Of a DNA stretch of 39,609 nt, positions 5,173 to 21,051 are shown in pieces. The notes under the pieces were generated by a model that searched no databases, had not been told where the DNA came from, and saw only the letters and a list, made by a program, of their open reading frames with translations. Each line of letters starts with the position of its first letter. Within the stretch, counting starts at the first letter, position 1. The position numbers and the translations under genes are program-made. The DNA is from a virus: IMG/VR virus record IMGVR_UViG_3300025286_000042, positions 1 to 39,609 of that record. The stretch is one strand, 5' to 3'.

Positions 5173-5991
5173 ATGGCGAAAAAAGAAAGTCGCTTTGAGT
5201 TCATAGATACGGACAAGGAACTGTCCGGCGAAGCAGACACTCCCTCAGAGGCCGAAGAAGAGAGTGTTGAGGCGTCGGCAGAATCCCCCGATGATGCAAC
5301 GGAGCAGGCTGAGGAGCAAGAGAGCGAGAACCAGGAAGTTGATGAAGTATCTGAGGTTAAAGCTGGAGGGAAGCAATTCTCGACGGTCGAAGCTTTGGCC
5401 GATGCTTACACCAACTTGCAGACGCTACACGGAAAGCAGACAAATGAGATTGGAGAATTGCGGCAAGCCATTGAAGGTTTGAAGGTAAGTGATCAGAACG
5501 CAGAAAAGGAAGAATCCCCTGTGCCTGAGTACGATCCTTACAATGCCGATTCAATCGCTGAATACGTCCAGCACGTTGCGAAGCAGACTTATCAGGCTGA
5601 AGCGAAAACGCAGAAGCGGAAGGCTGCCGAGCAGAAGATGGACGAAGCGTATGAATCAATGGTCCGGCAATTTACTAAAGATCATCCTGATCTTTCCAAA
5701 GATGAGCTTATGGCGGTCGCTCAATTTGCCGACAGTAGAGGCATCACCTTTATGGACGATGCCTACACTATCAAAATGGCTGAAACAACTGCAAGGAAGG
5801 CCAAGGAGGAAGGTCAGGCTGAAGTGACTAAAAAACTTCAGGCGACCGCATCCGTTCCCCCGTCGTTATCTACGGCAGGTTCTGGGAAAAGCACTACCGA
5901 AGAGGACATAGACAACATACCCGCTTCTGAGTGGGGTGATATTCCTAGTAAGGAACGGTGGGAGTATCTCCGAAACGTTCCCGGCAGTTAA
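5173..5991 (+). CDS. Capsid scaffolding protein
   Basis: This 272-residue, strongly acidic, Glu/Ala-rich protein lies directly before the capsid gene. That composition and place are typical of scaffolds that guide procapsid assembly and then leave. A long coiled coil is likely around residues 75-200, with the C-terminal 40 residues ending in SEWGDIPSKERWEYLRN, which could be the capsid-binding end. The start at 5173 is set by a strong GGAGG ten bases upstream. An upstream in-frame start would lie inside the terminator hairpin. Assignment is by context and composition. Confidence 0.75.
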   Translation: MAKKESRFEFIDTDKELSGEADTPSEAEEESVEASAESPDDATEQAEEQESENQEVDEVSEVKAGGKQFSTVEALADAYTNLQTLHGKQTNEIGELRQAIEGLKVSDQNAEKEESPVPEYDPYNADSIAEYVQHVAKQTYQAEAKTQKRKAAEQKMDEAYESMVRQFTKDHPDLSKDELMAVAQFADSRGITFMDDAYTIKMAETTARKAKEEGQAEVTKKLQATASVPPSLSTAGSGKSTTEEDIDNIPASEWGDIPSKERWEYLRNVPGS

Positions 5992-6009
5992 TCTTAAAGG
6001 AGCTATTTA

Positions 6010-7029
6010 ATGGCACAATCATCTTGGGCGTCTGGTTTACAGGTATCCAGATGGGCTAAAGAGCTTTTCAATGAAGTAGGTAAGGAAATCTACTTTGAAA
6101 AGTTTATGGGCGATGGTGCGGATTCGATGATTCAGGTTAAACACGAACTGGACGGTTCACAGGGTAAAGACGTAACCTTTGGTCTTATCACGAACCTGTC
6201 CGGCTCTGGTATTTCCGGCGACAGCACACTGGAAGGGAACGAAGAGGCTATGAGTTCTTATTCTCAGACTGTTACCACTGCAATGGAGCGTAACGCAGTA
6301 CGGGATACTGGTAACTTTGAAAACAGCAAGGTTCTCTTTGATTTTCGTAAAGAGTCTCTGTCTGTTCTCAAGACCTGGCTATCTGAGAAGGTTGATTCTG
6401 ACCTTTTCACGTCTCTATCCGCTTCACCCACCCGAACCTTCAGGGCTGATGATGGATCAACCTCAGTTGGCAGCAGAGCGAATGAATCAAGTACAGCCGC
6501 TGCGCTGACCGCTAGCGATACCATCTCGTTGTCTGACATTTCTGCATTGAAACGTCTGGCACAAATCCCTAAAGGTTCAAGCGAACTTCGTATGAGACCT
6601 ATCCGCGTTGGCGGTAAAGAATACTACATCCTTCTGGTTCATCCGGAAGTGGCGTACGATCTTACCACCTTGTCTGCTTGGCAGCAGGCACAGCGCGACG
6701 GCAACATTCGAGGAGAGAGCAATCCTATTTTCAGCGGTGCGTTAGGTGTTTTTGACGGTGTGGTAATTCACGCCCACGAAAATATCTCACAGGCTGATAC
6801 GGGAGGTTCTGGTGGTAATCTTCATTATTCTACCAATCTCTTCCTCGGTTCACAAGCCGGAGTCTTTGCGAGAGTTGGCGAGCCTCTCTGGGTTGAAAAG
6901 ACCTTTGATTATAGCAATTCTCTCGGTGTAGCCGGTGGGCTTATTTATGGACAGGGTAAATCTAAGTTTAATTCCGAAGATTATTCCTGCATTGCCTACT
7001 ATACGCAGAATACCGATTTTACTGCATAG
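6010..7029 (+). CDS. Major capsid protein, N4-gp56-like family
   Basis: This 339-residue protein has the pattern of the N4 gp56 / DUF4043 HK97-fold capsid group. It has an N-terminal SSWASGLQVSRWAKEL, FEKFMGDGADSMIQVK, a segment with the LTNLSG-like turn GLITNLSGSG, an MERNAVRDTGN region, and later YYILLVHPEVAYDL. The ribosome binding site is AAAGGAG, 7 bases before ATG. It follows the scaffold by 18 bases. This capsid type with a P22-type portal fits a podovirus. The family call is from remembered patterns, not a search. Confidence 0.85.
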   Translation: MAQSSWASGLQVSRWAKELFNEVGKEIYFEKFMGDGADSMIQVKHELDGSQGKDVTFGLITNLSGSGISGDSTLEGNEEAMSSYSQTVTTAMERNAVRDTGNFENSKVLFDFRKESLSVLKTWLSEKVDSDLFTSLSASPTRTFRADDGSTSVGSRANESSTAAALTASDTISLSDISALKRLAQIPKGSSELRMRPIRVGGKEYYILLVHPEVAYDLTTLSAWQQAQRDGNIRGESNPIFSGALGVFDGVVIHAHENISQADTGGSGGNLHYSTNLFLGSQAGVFARVGEPLWVEKTFDYSNSLGVAGGLIYGQGKSKFNSEDYSCIAYYTQNTDFTA

Positions 7030-7140: not shown

Positions 7141-7785
7141 ATGGCAACACTGGCAGCATTAGAAGATCAGGTACGGGATAAGCTCGGTTTAGCGGCAACG
7201 GATACACCGCCTACGGACAGCGAGATTGACCAGTGGATTGTTGACGGTCAGAACGAAATAGTTAATATGGTGGTAGATGATGCGCTTACAACAATGATTG
7301 TAGAAGATTCTCTGGACGGGAACCTCAATAGAGATGTAGGCTTCACCAGCGGATCACCGTCACTGACATCAGAACCGTACAGAATCTTAGCGGTAAAAAT
7401 TAAAGAATTAGGAGGGTCTCTCGAGTCTGCGATTCTGGTATCGTCTGAGATAATGGATATTATTGACGACGGTTCTGACAGTATTTACAGTACATCGGGA
7501 AAATTTTATGCGATTTACGAGAGTAAAATACGGCTTTCACAGGCAGGGAAAAGTGAAGCGGGAAGTGTAGTGGTGAGATATATAAAAATTCCGCAGAAAA
7601 CGAGGACGACTGAATGCGACTTGCCCACATCTTTAGAGCCCCTGGTGGTTGATTACGCAGTGGCGGAAGCGAAGAAACAGATAGAGGAGTATAATGATGC
7701 ACAGGCGATTATGCAGGGATTTTATCAGAAGATTGGAGTAATAAATAAGCGTTACGGTGGTATTCACGAGGTTGAAGAAGAATGA
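7141..7785 (+). CDS. Head-tail connector or adaptor protein
   Basis: This 214-residue acidic protein comes immediately after the capsid. The N-terminal helical pattern (LEDQVRDKLGL, DSEIDQWIVDGQNEIV) resembles phage adaptor proteins that bind under the portal, in which a helical bundle is interrupted by a beta domain. The next gene starts with a very similar layout, so the two may be paralogous connector rings. The ribosome binding site is AAGGAG, and the stop overlaps the next start (ATGA). The exact ring position cannot be told from sequence. Confidence 0.6.
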   Translation: MATLAALEDQVRDKLGLAATDTPPTDSEIDQWIVDGQNEIVNMVVDDALTTMIVEDSLDGNLNRDVGFTSGSPSLTSEPYRILAVKIKELGGSLESAILVSSEIMDIIDDGSDSIYSTSGKFYAIYESKIRLSQAGKSEAGSVVVRYIKIPQKTRTTECDLPTSLEPLVVDYAVAEAKKQIEEYNDAQAIMQGFYQKIGVINKRYGGIHEVEEE

Positions 7786-8435
7786 ACTTACGAGACATTA
7801 GATCAGAGATAAGACTTTTAACCGATACAACGGAAGACAAAAAATATCCCGACTCTCATATTAATGATTTTATCAATCGAGGGCAGATGATACTTGTGGA
7901 TGAAGCGGAACTGCTGGAAACCACTGCTACGGCAACAGCAGCGTCCGGTACAAAAGAATACGATTTAGACAGTTCTTCCATTTGGACGCCGGAAGGCGGC
8001 GGAGGCGCTGCTGCCATTAGCATCTTACGGATGCGGAGAGTGGACTACGATGGTTACAAGATTCACCGTATCGGTTATCATCAGATAGTGAATCCGTCAA
8101 ACTCCAGCGGAACGGCTACTATCCCCGGCGGATACGGATATTACATCAGGGACAACAAAGTGGGGATATTCCCCGACCCATCAGCAGTAACGATAAAGAT
8201 TTATTACATTCCGAAGCCGACGACATTATCGAGCAATACGTCAACACCTGACATTGATTCGGCTTATCACGAGGCGTTGGTTTATTACGGTGCCTGGAAG
8301 GTGGCGGAGAGGTTTCAGCGGGATATGATCTCCTACTATAAGAATGAGTGGAGTGAGTGGAAACGGAAAGCGATACAGTACGGTAATTACAAATTTGCTG
8401 AACCGTCATTTACAATTGACTACAACGATTTTTAA
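7782..8435 (+). CDS. Second head-tail connector or adaptor protein
   Basis: This 217-residue protein has the start MNLRDIRSEIRLLTDTTEDK and an INDFINRGQMILVDEAELLE helix. That is the same arrangement seen in the preceding gene and in adaptor proteins of several podoviruses and siphoviruses. The middle is beta-rich with Gly clusters (EGGGGAAA, GGYGYYIRDN), and the C-terminal third returns to helices with aromatic residues. It overlaps the previous gene by four bases. It probably links portal to tail. Confidence 0.6.
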   Translation: MNLRDIRSEIRLLTDTTEDKKYPDSHINDFINRGQMILVDEAELLETTATATAASGTKEYDLDSSSIWTPEGGGGAAAISILRMRRVDYDGYKIHRIGYHQIVNPSNSSGTATIPGGYGYYIRDNKVGIFPDPSAVTIKIYYIPKPTTLSSNTSTPDIDSAYHEALVYYGAWKVAERFQRDMISYYKNEWSEWKRKAIQYGNYKFAEPSFTIDYNDF

Positions 8436-8437
8436 TT

Positions 8438-11353
8438 ATGCCTAATCCTAAACAGAGATTTAAGATTGGCGATTTCAGCGGCGGACTGGTGACGTATCCG
8501 TCTCCGCTGGATATTAAGGACAATCAGTTCCAGTCGTTTGAAGAAGTTGAGAATCGCAAAATCGGGAGAGTGGAGAAGGTGAAAGGAGCGGCGGATATTA
8601 CAGCAGCTCGTTCCACCAGCGATATTCTTAAAGGACAGGGGTACTATATCTATCGTACCGGCTGGGATGCCAGTAATAATCAGAACAGTACGATGTGGCA
8701 CATATTGTATCGCAAGAACGGATCCAGCGATAGAACAGTGGAGCGATATGACAACGCTGACGGAGGAGGTGGAAGCTGGTTGGAGATATTTGATGAGACA
8801 ACCTGGACTGACACTTCCAGTGATCCGGAAGTGGATATGTTTGCGCATAATGAAGTGCTTCGTATTTCTGACGGAAACCTGGGAAACAGTAATAATGCCT
8901 CACAGTGGTACGGACATATCAAGCGGGAGTTTTGGGGTAACGGCACAGCGTCAGGAATAACATACGGAACGAATAAGTCTCCCGATTATTACCAGCCGGC
9001 ACAGAACGAAAATATCAGCAATTGGAAAATTTATGAGACAGAGTTGAAGCCGCCTATTGTGGTAAAGATGAAAGGTGCTTACGATACAGCGGGACTGAAC
9101 ACATCTGTTACAATTAATAATAACGATTTTGAGAGTGGTTTTACAGATGGATTAGCAACCAATTGGAGCAATCAACAAACGGTTACAGTAGCCGAATATA
9201 CTGCTGATCCTTATGCTGGAAACAGCGCACAGCAGATTAAATATACAAACGGAACTGGTCAGAATGTTTATCAAGCCGTTTCTGTTACCGTTGGACAACA
9301 ATATCGTCTTGCCTGTTATATAAAAACACTTTCTGGCACATTAAATTCAAAAATTGGTATATCTGGAACACAAACAGGTTCTCTTGATGCCGCAACGACT
9401 TCAATAACAACCGTAGAGGATTGGCAGTATGTATCTGTTGATTTTATTGCACCAGCTTCTACGATATATATAAAGTTATTAGCAAGTATATCTTCCGCAG
9501 ATACAGGCGTCGCAGTTTTTGACAATATAACCTTGGAATCTCTTGGAGGGGGGATAAGCGCAGAAAGGAATGTGGGAATCTTTTCTTACGAGCCGAGGCA
9601 TCCGTACGCTTCCGGTACAATACTGGAAAATGACGATCACTATTTGTGGCCCGATGCAATCAGGTCTGAAACATTCAGTGAAGATGATAAATATACAGTA
9701 ACGTATGTTTATGATCATATTCAGGAGACGGAGTTGGGTAAGACTGATGATGGTGAGATTGGTGTGTCAGGGTTTGAAGTTAAGGAGCAGGGTCCCGATG
9801 AATTTAAGGCAAAACTGGTCGTCGATGGAACAACAGACAACCTTGTAAATGATGCTTCGTTTGATATGGGGGACCCGACAGTAACAGTAGATTCTGGCGG
9901 AGCGTTTAATATCTATACTTATATTCGCATCGGTCAGGAAATAATGCTTATCACCGCAATCGATAGCGATGTTTTAACGGTTGTAAGGGGACAGCAGGGC
10001 ACTTCTGACGCTGATCACAGCGATAATAGCGAAATTTATATCTATCCGTCTCCGCACAAGGCGAGAGCGATCAATCTTGTTATTTACACCGGTGCTTCCA
10101 ATGCCAATTGGAATCGTCGTATAACAGCCATAAATCTGTACTGGAAGCCGAAAGACGAGGTAGATTGGTATTTAGCAGGCACGTTTGATGTGGAAACAGG
10201 ATTCGCTGATAGTGATTTGGCTATACTTGAGCCAACCGCTACAAACGTTGAAAGTAATTGGGGGCATTGGACAAGATGTCCTGATGCTGCTGGTTCAGAG
10301 GTAACTGTTGGCGCCATTGAGGCTGGTAGCACTGATAGAAAATGGCTTGACACTGATTATTTTGTTAATACGGCTGTTAACGATATCGCTGTGGCGGTCA
10401 GCATTGCGAAAAGTCCAAACGACTATTCTACAATGCTCAATTCACTTAGTTCTATGTGGGGGAAGGTGTCGGCAAAAGTGACGACAGATGATGGTGTAGA
10501 GTTTGATGCCAATATGCTTCCCGTTTCCAGAAGTGGAACGAGAGCGTCTGACCCTGAGACATATTATGTGGTTACATCCACACCGAGAACTGATGTGGTG
10601 ACGAATTGGTACTTCCCGTTTGACGGTATCAAGGCGATGACGTATCAGTCGTTCACCGGACGCATTGCCAATCAGACGGTACCGGCCATACGATGGAAGA
10701 CATCGGTGGTGGCAGGAGACAGAGCATTTTACGGCAATATAGACACTAAGGACGAAAACGAGCAGACAGTGAGGGAAAGAAGCAGGGTATATTGGTCGCC
10801 TGTATTTAAGCCTGATGAAATTACAATGACCGGATTTAAGGACTTCGGTAAGAATGACGGTGACGAAATTGTGTCTCTGGAGGAACTGGACGGCAGGTTA
10901 TATGTTCTTAAAGACAGGAATGTGTATATTATGAATGTATCTGCCGGTTCTGAGTTGAATTGGCACATAGAGCGTCATTACAGGGGATTTGGATGTTCTT
11001 ATCGCTCTGCAAGTATTAAGACACCGTATGGTGTTGTATGCTGCGATTCCAAGCAGATTACACTCATAACACCACAACAAATTGTAGAACTGTCGCTTCC
11101 TATTCGCTCTGAATGGCAAGCGCTTACGTTCGATAACCCGGCTATCGGTTATTCCGGTGTTCAGAAGGAGCTGGTGATAATTCCCGATACTTCACCAGGT
11201 AATGCGGTGGTGAACGGGTACAGATATAATTTCGATAACAGGAGTATATCAAAAGCAACACTTGATTCTATTACAGCGGATGATGTCAGTAATTTTCAAA
11301 TTGGAGACAACCTTGAACCTGTTTACGTCAGATCACATACGGTGGCTTCCTGA
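8438..11353 (+). CDS. Tail nozzle / stabilisation-type protein with inserted CBM-like domain
   Basis: This 971-residue protein starts with KIGDFSGGLVTYPSPLDIKD, a pattern typical of podoviral tail nozzle and stabilisation proteins. The C-terminal third has beta-propeller-like repeats (VYWSPVFKPDEITMTGFKDF, LDGRLYVLKDRNVYIMN). Residues about 226-369 differ: they read as a carbohydrate-binding module of the CBM4/9 jelly-roll kind (NNDFESGF, Thr/Ser-rich strands, VFDNITLESLGGG). Their codons are more AT-rich than the flanks, suggesting a later insertion. The gene starts 2 bases after the previous stop. It probably forms the lower tail tube and may touch surface sugars. Confidence 0.65.
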   Translation: MPNPKQRFKIGDFSGGLVTYPSPLDIKDNQFQSFEEVENRKIGRVEKVKGAADITAARSTSDILKGQGYYIYRTGWDASNNQNSTMWHILYRKNGSSDRTVERYDNADGGGGSWLEIFDETTWTDTSSDPEVDMFAHNEVLRISDGNLGNSNNASQWYGHIKREFWGNGTASGITYGTNKSPDYYQPAQNENISNWKIYETELKPPIVVKMKGAYDTAGLNTSVTINNNDFESGFTDGLATNWSNQQTVTVAEYTADPYAGNSAQQIKYTNGTGQNVYQAVSVTVGQQYRLACYIKTLSGTLNSKIGISGTQTGSLDAATTSITTVEDWQYVSVDFIAPASTIYIKLLASISSADTGVAVFDNITLESLGGGISAERNVGIFSYEPRHPYASGTILENDDHYLWPDAIRSETFSEDDKYTVTYVYDHIQETELGKTDDGEIGVSGFEVKEQGPDEFKAKLVVDGTTDNLVNDASFDMGDPTVTVDSGGAFNIYTYIRIGQEIMLITAIDSDVLTVVRGQQGTSDADHSDNSEIYIYPSPHKARAINLVIYTGASNANWNRRITAINLYWKPKDEVDWYLAGTFDVETGFADSDLAILEPTATNVESNWGHWTRCPDAAGSEVTVGAIEAGSTDRKWLDTDYFVNTAVNDIAVAVSIAKSPNDYSTMLNSLSSMWGKVSAKVTTDDGVEFDANMLPVSRSGTRASDPETYYVVTSTPRTDVVTNWYFPFDGIKAMTYQSFTGRIANQTVPAIRWKTSVVAGDRAFYGNIDTKDENEQTVRERSRVYWSPVFKPDEITMTGFKDFGKNDGDEIVSLEELDGRLYVLKDRNVYIMNVSAGSELNWHIERHYRGFGCSYRSASIKTPYGVVCCDSKQITLITPQQIVELSLPIRSEWQALTFDNPAIGYSGVQKELVIIPDTSPGNAVVNGYRYNFDNRSISKATLDSITADDVSNFQIGDNLEPVYVRSHTVAS

Positions 11354-11930: not shown

Positions 11931-13121
11931 ATGGCAAATAAAACTGAGTATTGGAAGACTATGTACGATGAACAAGGTAATTTGTATAAAGCGTATAAGA
12001 TAAGAGATTGGCGTGGAACCACAATTAATGCGTTCTTAAAAGACTCGTCAGGAAACATCGTTCTGCAAACTGATGATTGGGCATTTCAAGGATTTGATTG
12101 GGCGGATGTAAGGAGAATGTGGCGAGAAAAAATGGCAGATTTTGAGTCAGAACGCGGTAATCTGATGAATCAGGATGAATGGGAATCTTTTGAAAGTGAA
12201 CAGGAAGAGAAAGATGATCTTGACGCTGATAAAGAGGAACTTCGTGCTGAGATTGAGGAACAGACGGGTGAGTATAAGACCGCTGTTGAGAGAGCTGGAG
12301 AAGAACAGGAAGAATATGCTGAACGACTTTCAGCCCGTAAGGGTGGTCAAATGGCACGAAAGGTTTCTGAGGCAATCTTGGGAACTGGCGGGGAGGCACC
12401 AGCGGCAGAGTTTGCGACCGAAAGGTTGAGCGAAGCGTCAGGCCGACAGCTTTCCGATATTGTGCAGGGTATTGGAGCTGGAACAAAATCGAAGTTGGCT
12501 GAGATTGAAGGGATGGATGTTGGAAATGTTTTTACTATGGAACAATTGGGGCAAAGGCAAGAAGAGATCACCAATGCGATGACGCGGTTTTTCCAACAGC
12601 AGGAAACAGAACGTGCTGGAATCCAGGCACAGCTTGATGTTCAGCCCGAATGGTGGGAAGGGATTATTGGTGATACTATCGGAGCGGCTGGGACATTTTA
12701 TGGTGCGAAAGCCGGTGCCACCATAGCAAGTGGTGGAACGATGGCTTGGACTTGTTTTGACGGTAGTGTTGGTGTTGTTGGTATTGATAGTATAATACCC
12801 TTTGAACTGCTAAAAGAAGGTGATGTTATTAGCACTACAAGCGGATTTAAGCCTGTAAGTAAAGTTCATAAATATAATGCGTCAAGCACGATCAATGTGG
12901 ATGGAATAAAAGTCACTGGATACCATCCCTATATTATGGAAGACGGCAGCTTGGAACTATCCGGAAAGTTAAAAGAAGGTGATGTTCTTTGGGGTGGCGA
13001 AGAGGTCAAGTCTATTGTGAGTGAGGAAGGTTCTGATTATGTCTATAACATTGATATTGACGGACATAATTACCATATAGAAAATGGTGCGTTGGTCCAT
13101 ACGGGGCGCAGGAGAGAATAA
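11931..13121 (+). CDS. Virion protein with C-terminal Hint (intein-like) domain
   Basis: This 396-residue protein has residues about 60-230 that are Glu-rich and helical or coiled-coil. Residues about 243-270 form a Gly/Ala-rich hydrophobic segment (GAAGTFYGAKAGATIASGG). From Cys275 (codon at 12753) to the end it is a Hint fold, with CFDGS at the start, IPFELLKEGDVIST, the B-block-like VTGYHP, a second KLKEGDVLWG, VYNIDIDGHNYHIENG, and a terminal VHTG. The usual final His-Asn and C-extein are absent, so splicing cannot occur; cleavage before Cys275 is the likely activity. The amphipathic front resembles phage ejection proteins. Confidence 0.7.
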   Translation: MANKTEYWKTMYDEQGNLYKAYKIRDWRGTTINAFLKDSSGNIVLQTDDWAFQGFDWADVRRMWREKMADFESERGNLMNQDEWESFESEQEEKDDLDADKEELRAEIEEQTGEYKTAVERAGEEQEEYAERLSARKGGQMARKVSEAILGTGGEAPAAEFATERLSEASGRQLSDIVQGIGAGTKSKLAEIEGMDVGNVFTMEQLGQRQEEITNAMTRFFQQQETERAGIQAQLDVQPEWWEGIIGDTIGAAGTFYGAKAGATIASGGTMAWTCFDGSVGVVGIDSIIPFELLKEGDVISTTSGFKPVSKVHKYNASSTINVDGIKVTGYHPYIMEDGSLELSGKLKEGDVLWGGEEVKSIVSEEGSDYVYNIDIDGHNYHIENGALVHTGRRRE

Positions 13122-18429: not shown

Positions 18430-21051
18430 ATGGCAGATGTAAAGATTAGTAATTTAACAGCTTTAACAGCGGTAGCTGATGCTGATGAATTTGTTATAGT
18501 TGACAGCGGTACTACCAAGAAAATAACAAGGAAAAATCTGTTAGGCACGGCAGATGTCACACTGGACAACAATATAGTGCTCACAGGCGGTGGGACTATC
18601 TCTACCACGTCTAACGGCGACATCGCACTTATGCCGAATGGGACAGGGAAAATAGGTATTGGAATTGCTGCTCCAGTATGTCCGTTGGACATCCGACACG
18701 CAGGAACAGGAGAGGGTGAGAGTATAGTCGTTGGCAATGCTGGAGAGGGTACGTATGGTGGTTTCGGTTATGACAATGATTCTCCGTATCCAGCAATCAT
18801 CTGGGGTGCTGAAGTCAACATAAGGACAGGCAGTTCTCGATTGTCGGGTGCTACAACAAGAATGGTTGTTGATGCCAACTCCCGCATCAGCCTCTCGAAT
18901 AATGATAGTGGTGGAACTGGTGGAACTGATAGTACATCTGGTAATACATTACTTGGTTATTTGGCTGGTGAGGATATTGCATCTGGTGGTTATGAAAATA
19001 CTCTTATCGGTCACGGTGCTGGTAAAAACATAGATACAGGCGATAAGAATGTAATGATAGGTTCTACTGCTGGAGACGCTATAGACGGTGAAACAAATAA
19101 TGTAGGTATCGGATATGGAGCGATGGGTGGAGCCGTCAATGGAGCTGATAAATGTATTGCTATTGGGTCTGACTCATTGTCTGGGGCTATAACACAGGAT
19201 GGTACGATTGCTATTGGTCATGATACACTGGCCGCATTGACATCTGGTGCTGGGAATGTTGCTGTTGGGTATCAAGCAGGATTAGCACAAACAGATTCTT
19301 ATTATAACACCTCAATAGGTCATCAAGCAAATAAAGTAACAGATGCTAATAGCAATACAGCAGTAGGTTACTTGGCTCACCAAGGAGATGGTAGTGATAA
19401 TACTGCTATAGGTGTTCTTGCTATGGACAATGCAAGCGGACAAGCTGATGGGTGTGTTGCGATTGGTAAAGATGCTTTAAGGGGCGATTTAACTTCTGCT
19501 GCTGATGGCACAGTTGCTATAGGAATGGATGCACTCACAGCACTCACAACTGGTGCTAAGAATATGGGAATAGGATATCTCGCTGGTGCAGTAGTTGCGG
19601 ATGGTACAGATAATACACTAATTGGCTATCAATCTGGATATCAGACTACTTATGGTATAACAAGTGGTGACCATAATACAGCATTAGGTTCAAGCACTTT
19701 AGGTGCTTCAGCGGCAGCACATATTACAGGAAGTGGAAATACAGCAATTGGTAGTAGTTCGATGTTAGAAGCACAAGGAGCAGTCGGTAACAACACAGCA
19801 GTGGGTAAGCTTTCTTTGGGCAACCTTACGTTAGGGACAGAAAATACAGCTTTAGGGTTTCAAGCGGCAAGACAACTTGGGGTAAGTGAAGTTGGGAATG
19901 TTGCGGTTGGTGCTAATGCTTTGAACACCTTTGATGAAGGCACTAATGGAAACATTAACTACAACATTGCGATTGGAGTAGAGGCGTTTATTGGTGGAAA
20001 TCTTGATACAGCATCAACTAATGTAATAGGAAATATTGCTATAGGAGCCTATGCTCTTGATGCTACTTCTACTAATGCTCAAACAGGCACAATCGCAATC
20101 GGACACCAAGCCCTCACCGCCCTCACATCTGGTGCAAGGAATTTGGCTATCGGCTATCAAGCGGCAGAAGATTTGACCGTGGGCGATGACAATATTGCGA
20201 TAGGTTATCTGGCTCTAAATGGAATGTCTACAGATGGAAATGCAGACCAAAACATTGCCATTGGTAATTATGTTATGGATGTTGCCAGTAATACTGCCTC
20301 TACTCGCCAAAATGTATGTATTGGACATAATTCTGGCACACTACTTACAGGTGATGATAACACGTGTATTGGAAATGCAAGTGGTGACACAATGGCGGCG
20401 GCTGAACAGAATACAATTATTGGTTCAGGGGCAGATACTTCAGCAAGTACTACGAGTAATGCAACAGCAATAGGATATGGTGCAGTTACTCAGGGAAACA
20501 ACTCAGTAACACTTGGTAATGCTTCTGTAACTGCTGTGTATATGGCATCGGATAAAGGTGCTAAAGTTTATTGCGGACAATTAGAAATGGGGACTACTGG
20601 CACAGGAAACGTTGGTATTGGCGTTGGTTCTGATATGGTATATTATAGTTATCTTGCTGGAACAAGTGCTCAGCAGCATATGATTTTTAACAATGATAAT
20701 GGAGATGTTGGCTCTATTGATTCAAGCGGTTCTAATACTTCTTACGGCACTACGTCTGATTATAGGCTTAAAGAGAATCAGGTTACTTTATCCGACGGAA
20801 TTAATCGACTAAACAAATTAAAGCCATATAGATTTAATTTTAAAGCAGACAAAGATACAACTCAAGATGGATTTTTTGCTCACGAAGTTGCAGAAGTTGT
20901 ACCAGAGGCAATAACTGGGGAAAAAGATGCGGTTGATGGTGATGGCAATATGATTACGCAACATATCGACCATTCAAAATTAGTTCCACTGCTTGTCAAA
21001 GCAGTACAAGAACTTTCCGCAAAAGTGGAAGCATTAGAAAACGCAGAATAA
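18430..21051 (+). CDS. Trimeric tail fibre with YadA-like repeats and S74 chaperone
   Basis: This 873-residue protein starts with a phage-fibre N-terminal domain (VKISNLTALTAVADADEFVI) that attaches to the tail. Residues about 165-700 are a long series of degenerate 14-16-residue repeats of the type NTAIGYxA and GNVAVGxxA, typical of left-handed YadA/Hia head beta-rolls. From about residue 770 the intramolecular chaperone (Peptidase S74) follows. It has SDYRLKEN with the likely catalytic Ser776, then LKPYRFNFK, GFFAHEVAEVVPEAI and a final coiled coil. S74 domains trimerise the fibre and then cut themselves off. It is the probable receptor-binding protein. Confidence 0.88.
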   Translation: MADVKISNLTALTAVADADEFVIVDSGTTKKITRKNLLGTADVTLDNNIVLTGGGTISTTSNGDIALMPNGTGKIGIGIAAPVCPLDIRHAGTGEGESIVVGNAGEGTYGGFGYDNDSPYPAIIWGAEVNIRTGSSRLSGATTRMVVDANSRISLSNNDSGGTGGTDSTSGNTLLGYLAGEDIASGGYENTLIGHGAGKNIDTGDKNVMIGSTAGDAIDGETNNVGIGYGAMGGAVNGADKCIAIGSDSLSGAITQDGTIAIGHDTLAALTSGAGNVAVGYQAGLAQTDSYYNTSIGHQANKVTDANSNTAVGYLAHQGDGSDNTAIGVLAMDNASGQADGCVAIGKDALRGDLTSAADGTVAIGMDALTALTTGAKNMGIGYLAGAVVADGTDNTLIGYQSGYQTTYGITSGDHNTALGSSTLGASAAAHITGSGNTAIGSSSMLEAQGAVGNNTAVGKLSLGNLTLGTENTALGFQAARQLGVSEVGNVAVGANALNTFDEGTNGNINYNIAIGVEAFIGGNLDTASTNVIGNIAIGAYALDATSTNAQTGTIAIGHQALTALTSGARNLAIGYQAAEDLTVGDDNIAIGYLALNGMSTDGNADQNIAIGNYVMDVASNTASTRQNVCIGHNSGTLLTGDDNTCIGNASGDTMAAAEQNTIIGSGADTSASTTSNATAIGYGAVTQGNNSVTLGNASVTAVYMASDKGAKVYCGQLEMGTTGTGNVGIGVGSDMVYYSYLAGTSAQQHMIFNNDNGDVGSIDSSGSNTSYGTTSDYRLKENQVTLSDGINRLNKLKPYRFNFKADKDTTQDGFFAHEVAEVVPEAITGEKDAVDGDGNMITQHIDHSKLVPLLVKAVQELSAKVEALENAE

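Follow-up and report, generated by a model that had tools for sequence, protein, structure and literature searches.

Among the described Hint systems, Hedgehog proteins use the first acyl-shift step only and bacterial intein-like (BIL) domains give mostly cleaved products, the His residues of blocks B and G being highly conserved (PMC7664689, in the part of the text available). The self-cleaving Ser/Lys dyad of endosialidases and MYRF, belonging to the Peptidase_S74 type, has the spacing S-D-x-x-x-K, with the Ser standing first in the released part (PMC3742443, available part). On the phage side, the cultured Sulfitobacter phage phiGT1 encodes a gp17 that adjoins two putative injection protein genes and has the same layout as the protein described here, and an S74 domain in this position in podoviruses is already mentioned in the phiGT1 record. 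Ejection proteins, the occurrence of S74 on them and cleavage by Hint domains were each already known. To our knowledge, how ejection proteins with membrane-prone ends stay soluble, are packed and are then activated is poorly understood.

The window, that is the whole stretch of 39,609 nucleotides of viral DNA that was analyzed, encodes a protein that had been predicted from the letters alone to be an ejection-type virion protein with a C-terminal Hint domain. The features of the gene and of its surroundings are collected in Table 1. The window protein alone gave no match reaching the phrog_4287 model; its front part retrieved the relative L078 at 1.4e-28, and L078 matched phrog_4287, annotated as DNA ejection protein, at 4.8e-16 over most of its length. 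This homology and the gene order agree with the predicted role and support the assignment of the window protein as a putative podovirus-type DNA-ejection protein. The gene is preceded by frames of 971, 121 and 67 aa and followed by the 305-aa gene and the LPD38 gene; in L176 and L177, too, the Hint gene is followed by a counterpart of the 305-aa gene, with K-K-R-P..Q near its start. The AlphaFold model of the full-length protein was weak (pLDDT 51), and RNA folding around the gene end revealed nothing notable.

Table 1. Features of the ejection gene and of its downstream neighbors, in window coordinates.
Feature	Position	Strand	Basis or remark
Whole ORF, 396 aa	11931..13121	+	Core homologous to relatives, including L078, which matches phrog_4287
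N-terminal head, residues 1-82	11931..12176	+	Predicted beta strands, then helix (low-confidence model); exchangeable among relatives
Conserved helical core, residues 83-243, ending PEWWE	12177..12659	+	Homology and model
Gly/Ala-rich, nearly uncharged segment, residues 244-274	12660..12752	+	Tailless relatives stop inside or shortly past it
Hint domain, residues 275-391	12753..13103	+	Profile, Pfam and fold searches
Cys275, Hint position 1, sole Cys of the protein	12753..12755	+	Predicted cut before Cys275
Block B, T329-x-x-H332	12915..12926	+	Present in 5/5 Hint copies
Residues 365-374	13023..13052	+	Missing from relative L003 (30-nt in-frame deletion)
His390-Thr391	13098..13103	+	Penultimate His kept, Thr for terminal Asn, both 5/5
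GRRRE and stop	13104..13121	+	Everything after Hint; no C-extein
Downstream gene, 305 aa	13121..14038	+	ATG overlaps ejection-gene stop (TAATG)
LPD38 protein, 1263 aa	14041..17832	+	Probably another injected protein

The motifs on which the original prediction had relied were all verified, namely CFDGS starting at Cys275 (12753), VTGYHP containing T329 and H332, and NIDIDGHNYHIENG, and the protein closes with ALVHTGRRRE. A phmmer search with the window sequence alone returned the BIL domain PDB 2lwy at E=0.0024, and a four-row profile of the relatives matched the same solved structure over almost its full length at E=1.8e-7. Pfam searches with the Hint domain alone returned Vint (8.5e-4) and Intein_splicing (1.3e-3), each below its curated cut-off. 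The AlphaFold model of the domain was of moderate quality (pLDDT 63, pTM 0.47); when this moderate model was compared with the PDB by Foldseek, the best 31 rows were all Hint-fold proteins (inteins, BIL, Hedgehog and Vint), with a top E of 4.8e-5, and VIA-align gave middling Z values of 5.8-7.9 over 49-112 residues among the 50 matches listed for it. The profile match to 2lwy and the fold search confirmed that residues 275-391 belong to the Hint (Hedgehog/intein) superfamily. The predicted start of the domain stood, while its end had been placed at 13121, which includes the stop codon; the Hint domain proper ends at Thr391 (13103).

As the domain ends in VHT and is directly followed by GRRRE, it lacks both a terminal Asn and a C-extein, and the claim that it is unable to splice was upheld. 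A true intein, which would end in Asn and be followed by a C-extein carrying a +1 nucleophile, was accordingly ruled out, as was a chance open reading frame, by the 2lwy match and the pattern of substitutions separating L003 from the window. PT-HINT, the Hint of polymorphic toxins, was ruled out because the protein ends 5 residues past the Hint domain and therefore carries no toxin domain; the Hint of the relative L098 scored 26.1 bits against the PT-HINT model, whose cut-off is 27.7. For a possible placement as a BIL domain of class A or B, the comparison covered the match to 2lwy, the best one obtained, and the terminal Asn, which is missing. The sterol acceptor recognition region of the Hog type is absent, just 5 residues following Thr391.

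The first relatives retrieved comprised close copies on four contigs only, three with identical protein over the part covered and one at 89-91%. The wider family was reached through the major capsid protein: a search with it led to related phages, in many of which homologues of the window protein's front part were then found. Two further scans with core alignments, each taking the best 80 loci and seeking the EWW region, brought the collection to 198 ORF hits, 86 of them distinct and 85 after collapse of fragments; seven open-ended fragments were left out, leaving 78 complete members, so that all tallies refer to members found and are to be read as at least. When part of the LPD38 protein was used as query, 3 loci were obtained. 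No relative of the Hint domain (by pattern scan) or of the core was found in a collection of 84,980 species genomes. In the phage collection, tblastn returned no convincing relative, whether the query was the whole window protein, the Hint alone, the core of L078 or the L176 protein; plasmids searched with the window Hint likewise gave none, and the last Hint scan added no contig. Hint copies are rare, amounting to 5 distinct sequences on 6 contigs besides the window. Hint domains were also seen in other phage proteins. Ruminococcus phage NatCom_3870 carries three neighboring Hint-bearing proteins (L008:3338-5056, 5534-6421 and 7230-8837) kilobases from an FtsK/SpoIIIE-like gene, and Vibrio phage 1.266.O carries, just upstream of its capsid genes, a protein (L010:3167-5290) whose Hint, with a terminal Asn and a following Cys, resembles a true intein.

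In all members but L019 the shared helical core closes with PEWWE; it is followed by the Gly/Ala-rich, nearly uncharged segment, and the members differ in what comes next. Among the 78 distinct complete members found, 45 are tailless, 28 carry a Peptidase_S74 domain and 5 a Hint domain. The S74 assignment was above the Pfam cut-off in all five tails tested, and the S-D-x-x-x-K motif with its Ser/Lys pair was kept in 28/28 tails, as scored by a profile that was built from such tails and is thus biased towards them; no tail lacking the motif reached E<1e-5. A search of the three forward frames immediately downstream of the 45 tailless members (135 frames, with less than 500 nt in 3 members) revealed no hidden Hint or S74 tail. 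The predicted cut falls 22-31 residues after EWWE in Hint members and 17-55 in S74 members, and the tailless proteins end at 20-61; since these distances overlap, self-removal of the tail would give what the tailless relatives encode directly. Cys1 of the Hint occupies the same position relative to the predicted cut as the Ser of S74. As the slot holds another self-cutting domain or nothing in the relatives, the Hint tail looks like a disposable plug-in, and the sharing of the slot by two unrelated self-cutting domains provides natural replacement evidence that the job of the slot is self-removal, pointing to one bond. In the window itself, the tail-fibre protein (18430-21051) carries a Peptidase_S74 domain at residues 776-828 (20755-20913), and the phage therefore has both self-cleaving folds, on separate proteins.

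The front parts of 77 members were placed on a tree, the S74-bearing L019 being excluded because it lacks the EWWE motif; on this tree the three tail states required at least 12 changes. A single clade of Hint-bearers was rejected (AU p=0.0004), in a tree and test that include long branches, and the Hint member L144 paired with the S74 member L036 with support of 100/96. Block exchange was observed between close genomes: the Hint-bearing L178 and the tailless L179 share five DNA blocks around and within the gene at 83-90% identity, and the Hint block of about 414 nt is unmatched in L179, where about 149 unrelated nt occupy its place. Across lineages, Hint domains are 52-69% identical on cores at 28-35% identity. 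Taken together, the tree, the L178/L179 pair and these identity contrasts indicate that the Hint is transferred, or maintained, independently of the protein that carries it. Exchange also concerns the heads, the first 75-105 residues or so (L178:3258-3570 and L179:3300-3522, and likewise in L175 and L176): L176 and L175 have heads 66% identical on cores at 31%, and L176 and L179 have cores 87% identical with heads just 30% alike.

The residues of the putative active site were then compared among the five distinct Hint copies. Cys1, which we take to be the nucleophile, is present in four of the five; the Thr and His of block B and the penultimate His, presumably the other key residues of the fold, occur in all five, as do a Thr immediately before Hint position 1 and a Thr at the position of the intein terminal Asn. 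The family is nearly devoid of Cys: a single Cys, located at Hint position 1, is present in four of the five Hint members, none was counted in 27 S74 members and 2 of the 45 tailless members have one. In the exception, L098, a Tyr replaces Cys1 and the protein has no Cys at all, so that this copy is unable to form the thioester; the remaining Hint is preserved and 57% identical to that of the window. When the window is compared with L003, 13 synonymous and 4 nonsynonymous substitutions fall in the Hint domain (dN/dS 0.075) and 18 and 37 in the front 274 residues (dN/dS 0.53), a contrast (Fisher p=0.002) that argues for strong purifying selection acting on the Hint. The residues missing from L003 make up most of one strand predicted in the AlphaFold model. 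The deletion is bordered by a 3-nt TGA repeat, as in slippage deletions. L098 and L003 are each represented by one metagenome contig, and assembly error is therefore possible in both.

On these grounds we consider it rather probable, judging from sequence, that the Hint is a removable self-cleaving tail whose departure would leave a 274-residue mature protein. An N-to-S acyl shift would activate the Thr274-Cys275 bond, hydrolysis or thiolysis of the thioester would then free the Hint, and the product would be a protein with a bare Gly/Ala-rich hydrophobic C-terminus. By analogy with the chaperone role of S74, the tail may cap, solubilise or help to fold this membrane-prone end until assembly, and then leave. 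Cleavage at Thr274-Cys275 is what we infer from the slot shared with S74, the single Cys and the purifying selection, and to this extent the self-cleavage at Cys275 put forward in the original prediction gained support; the Cys-free L098 speaks against it. What was observed is the fold, the conserved residues, the selection, the slot sharing and the block exchange. The points counting against a removable tail are this loss of Cys1, the L003 deletion, the tailless majority and the Pfam Hint scores below cut-off.

The same L098 copy, with its Hint preserved around a lost Cys1, would fit a domain that stays attached, either capping the Gly/Ala-rich end as a folded unit or serving it as a handle for oligomerisation or packaging, with catalysis dispensable. 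The S74 domain offers a parallel, being also a trimerisation chaperone in endosialidases and MYRF (PMC3742443, available part). A permanent cap would hardly explain why a nearly Cys-free family places its sole Cys at Hint position 1 in four of five copies, nor why every copy preserves the penultimate His along with the Thr and His of block B, and we regard it as unlikely. Decay could instead be read from the fact that L098 has lost Cys1 and L003 10 residues, from the absent C-extein and from the patchy presence of the domain, all of which would suit the decaying remnant of a mobile intein or Hint that has no function in the phage. The low dN/dS of the Hint compared with the rest of the protein, its higher identity than that of the cores and the occupation of the same slot by S74 weigh against such a remnant, which appears improbable.

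The alternative outcome raised by the original prediction is attachment of the front part to a nucleophile. In such a transfer, comparable to that onto cholesterol by the Hedgehog Hog domain, the acceptor could be a lipid, a sugar or a different protein of the virion, and the ejection protein would become anchored. This reading draws on the reliance of Hedgehog on the first acyl-shift step alone (PMC7664689, available part) and on the fact that the window Hint retains just the parts needed by that step. The protein has no acceptor-recognition region, its C-terminus lying 5 residues past Thr391, and the literature on the S74 domain, which shares the slot, describes it simply as a peptidase that cleaves itself (PMC3742443, available part); transfer therefore seems very improbable.

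With the removable tail as the preferred reading, the finding is larger than first noted: phage ejection proteins appear, from sequence comparison, to possess a real variable socket for self-cleaving tails. We give about even chances to the broader proposal that ejection proteins have a socket for disposable self-cleaving domains, filled by Hint or S74 or left empty, whose tails would cap and then uncover a membrane-active end, allowing maturation without a separate protease. If true, this would be a cleaving-only use of Hint in a phage delivery protein. The role of Hint in an ejection protein and its exchange with S74 appear to be new, neither having been found in the literature searched: among the papers listed, none describing a phage ejection protein with a Hint domain was encountered, the available parts of PMC10386132 and PMC2362128 included, the available text of PMC5512222 has no "intein" and has "hint" solely inside "hints", and that of PMC8954989 contains neither "S74" nor "intein".

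Compared with known systems, the window Hint is closest to the BIL domains, which provide its best sequence match (PDB 2lwy), share its fold and give mainly cleaved products (PMC7664689, available part), and it differs from them in having Thr for the terminal Asn, no C-flank and a phage ejection protein as carrier. Like Hedgehog Hog, which was found in the fold search, it is a C-terminal Hint of the kind that uses the N-terminal acyl shift alone (PMC7664689, available part), but it lacks an acceptor-binding extension past the Hint. Peptidase_S74, the intramolecular chaperone auto-processing domain, occupies the same slot (28/78) and likewise has its nucleophile first in the C-terminal piece (PMC3742443, available part), although its fold is unrelated, its catalysis uses a Ser/Lys dyad rather than Cys and it depends on trimerisation. 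Finally, gp17 of phiGT1, of the phrog_4287/phrog_6121 type, resembles the window protein in being an ejection-type protein with a Gly/Ala-rich segment, a C-terminal domain and injection-protein neighbors, and carries S74 where the window protein carries Hint.
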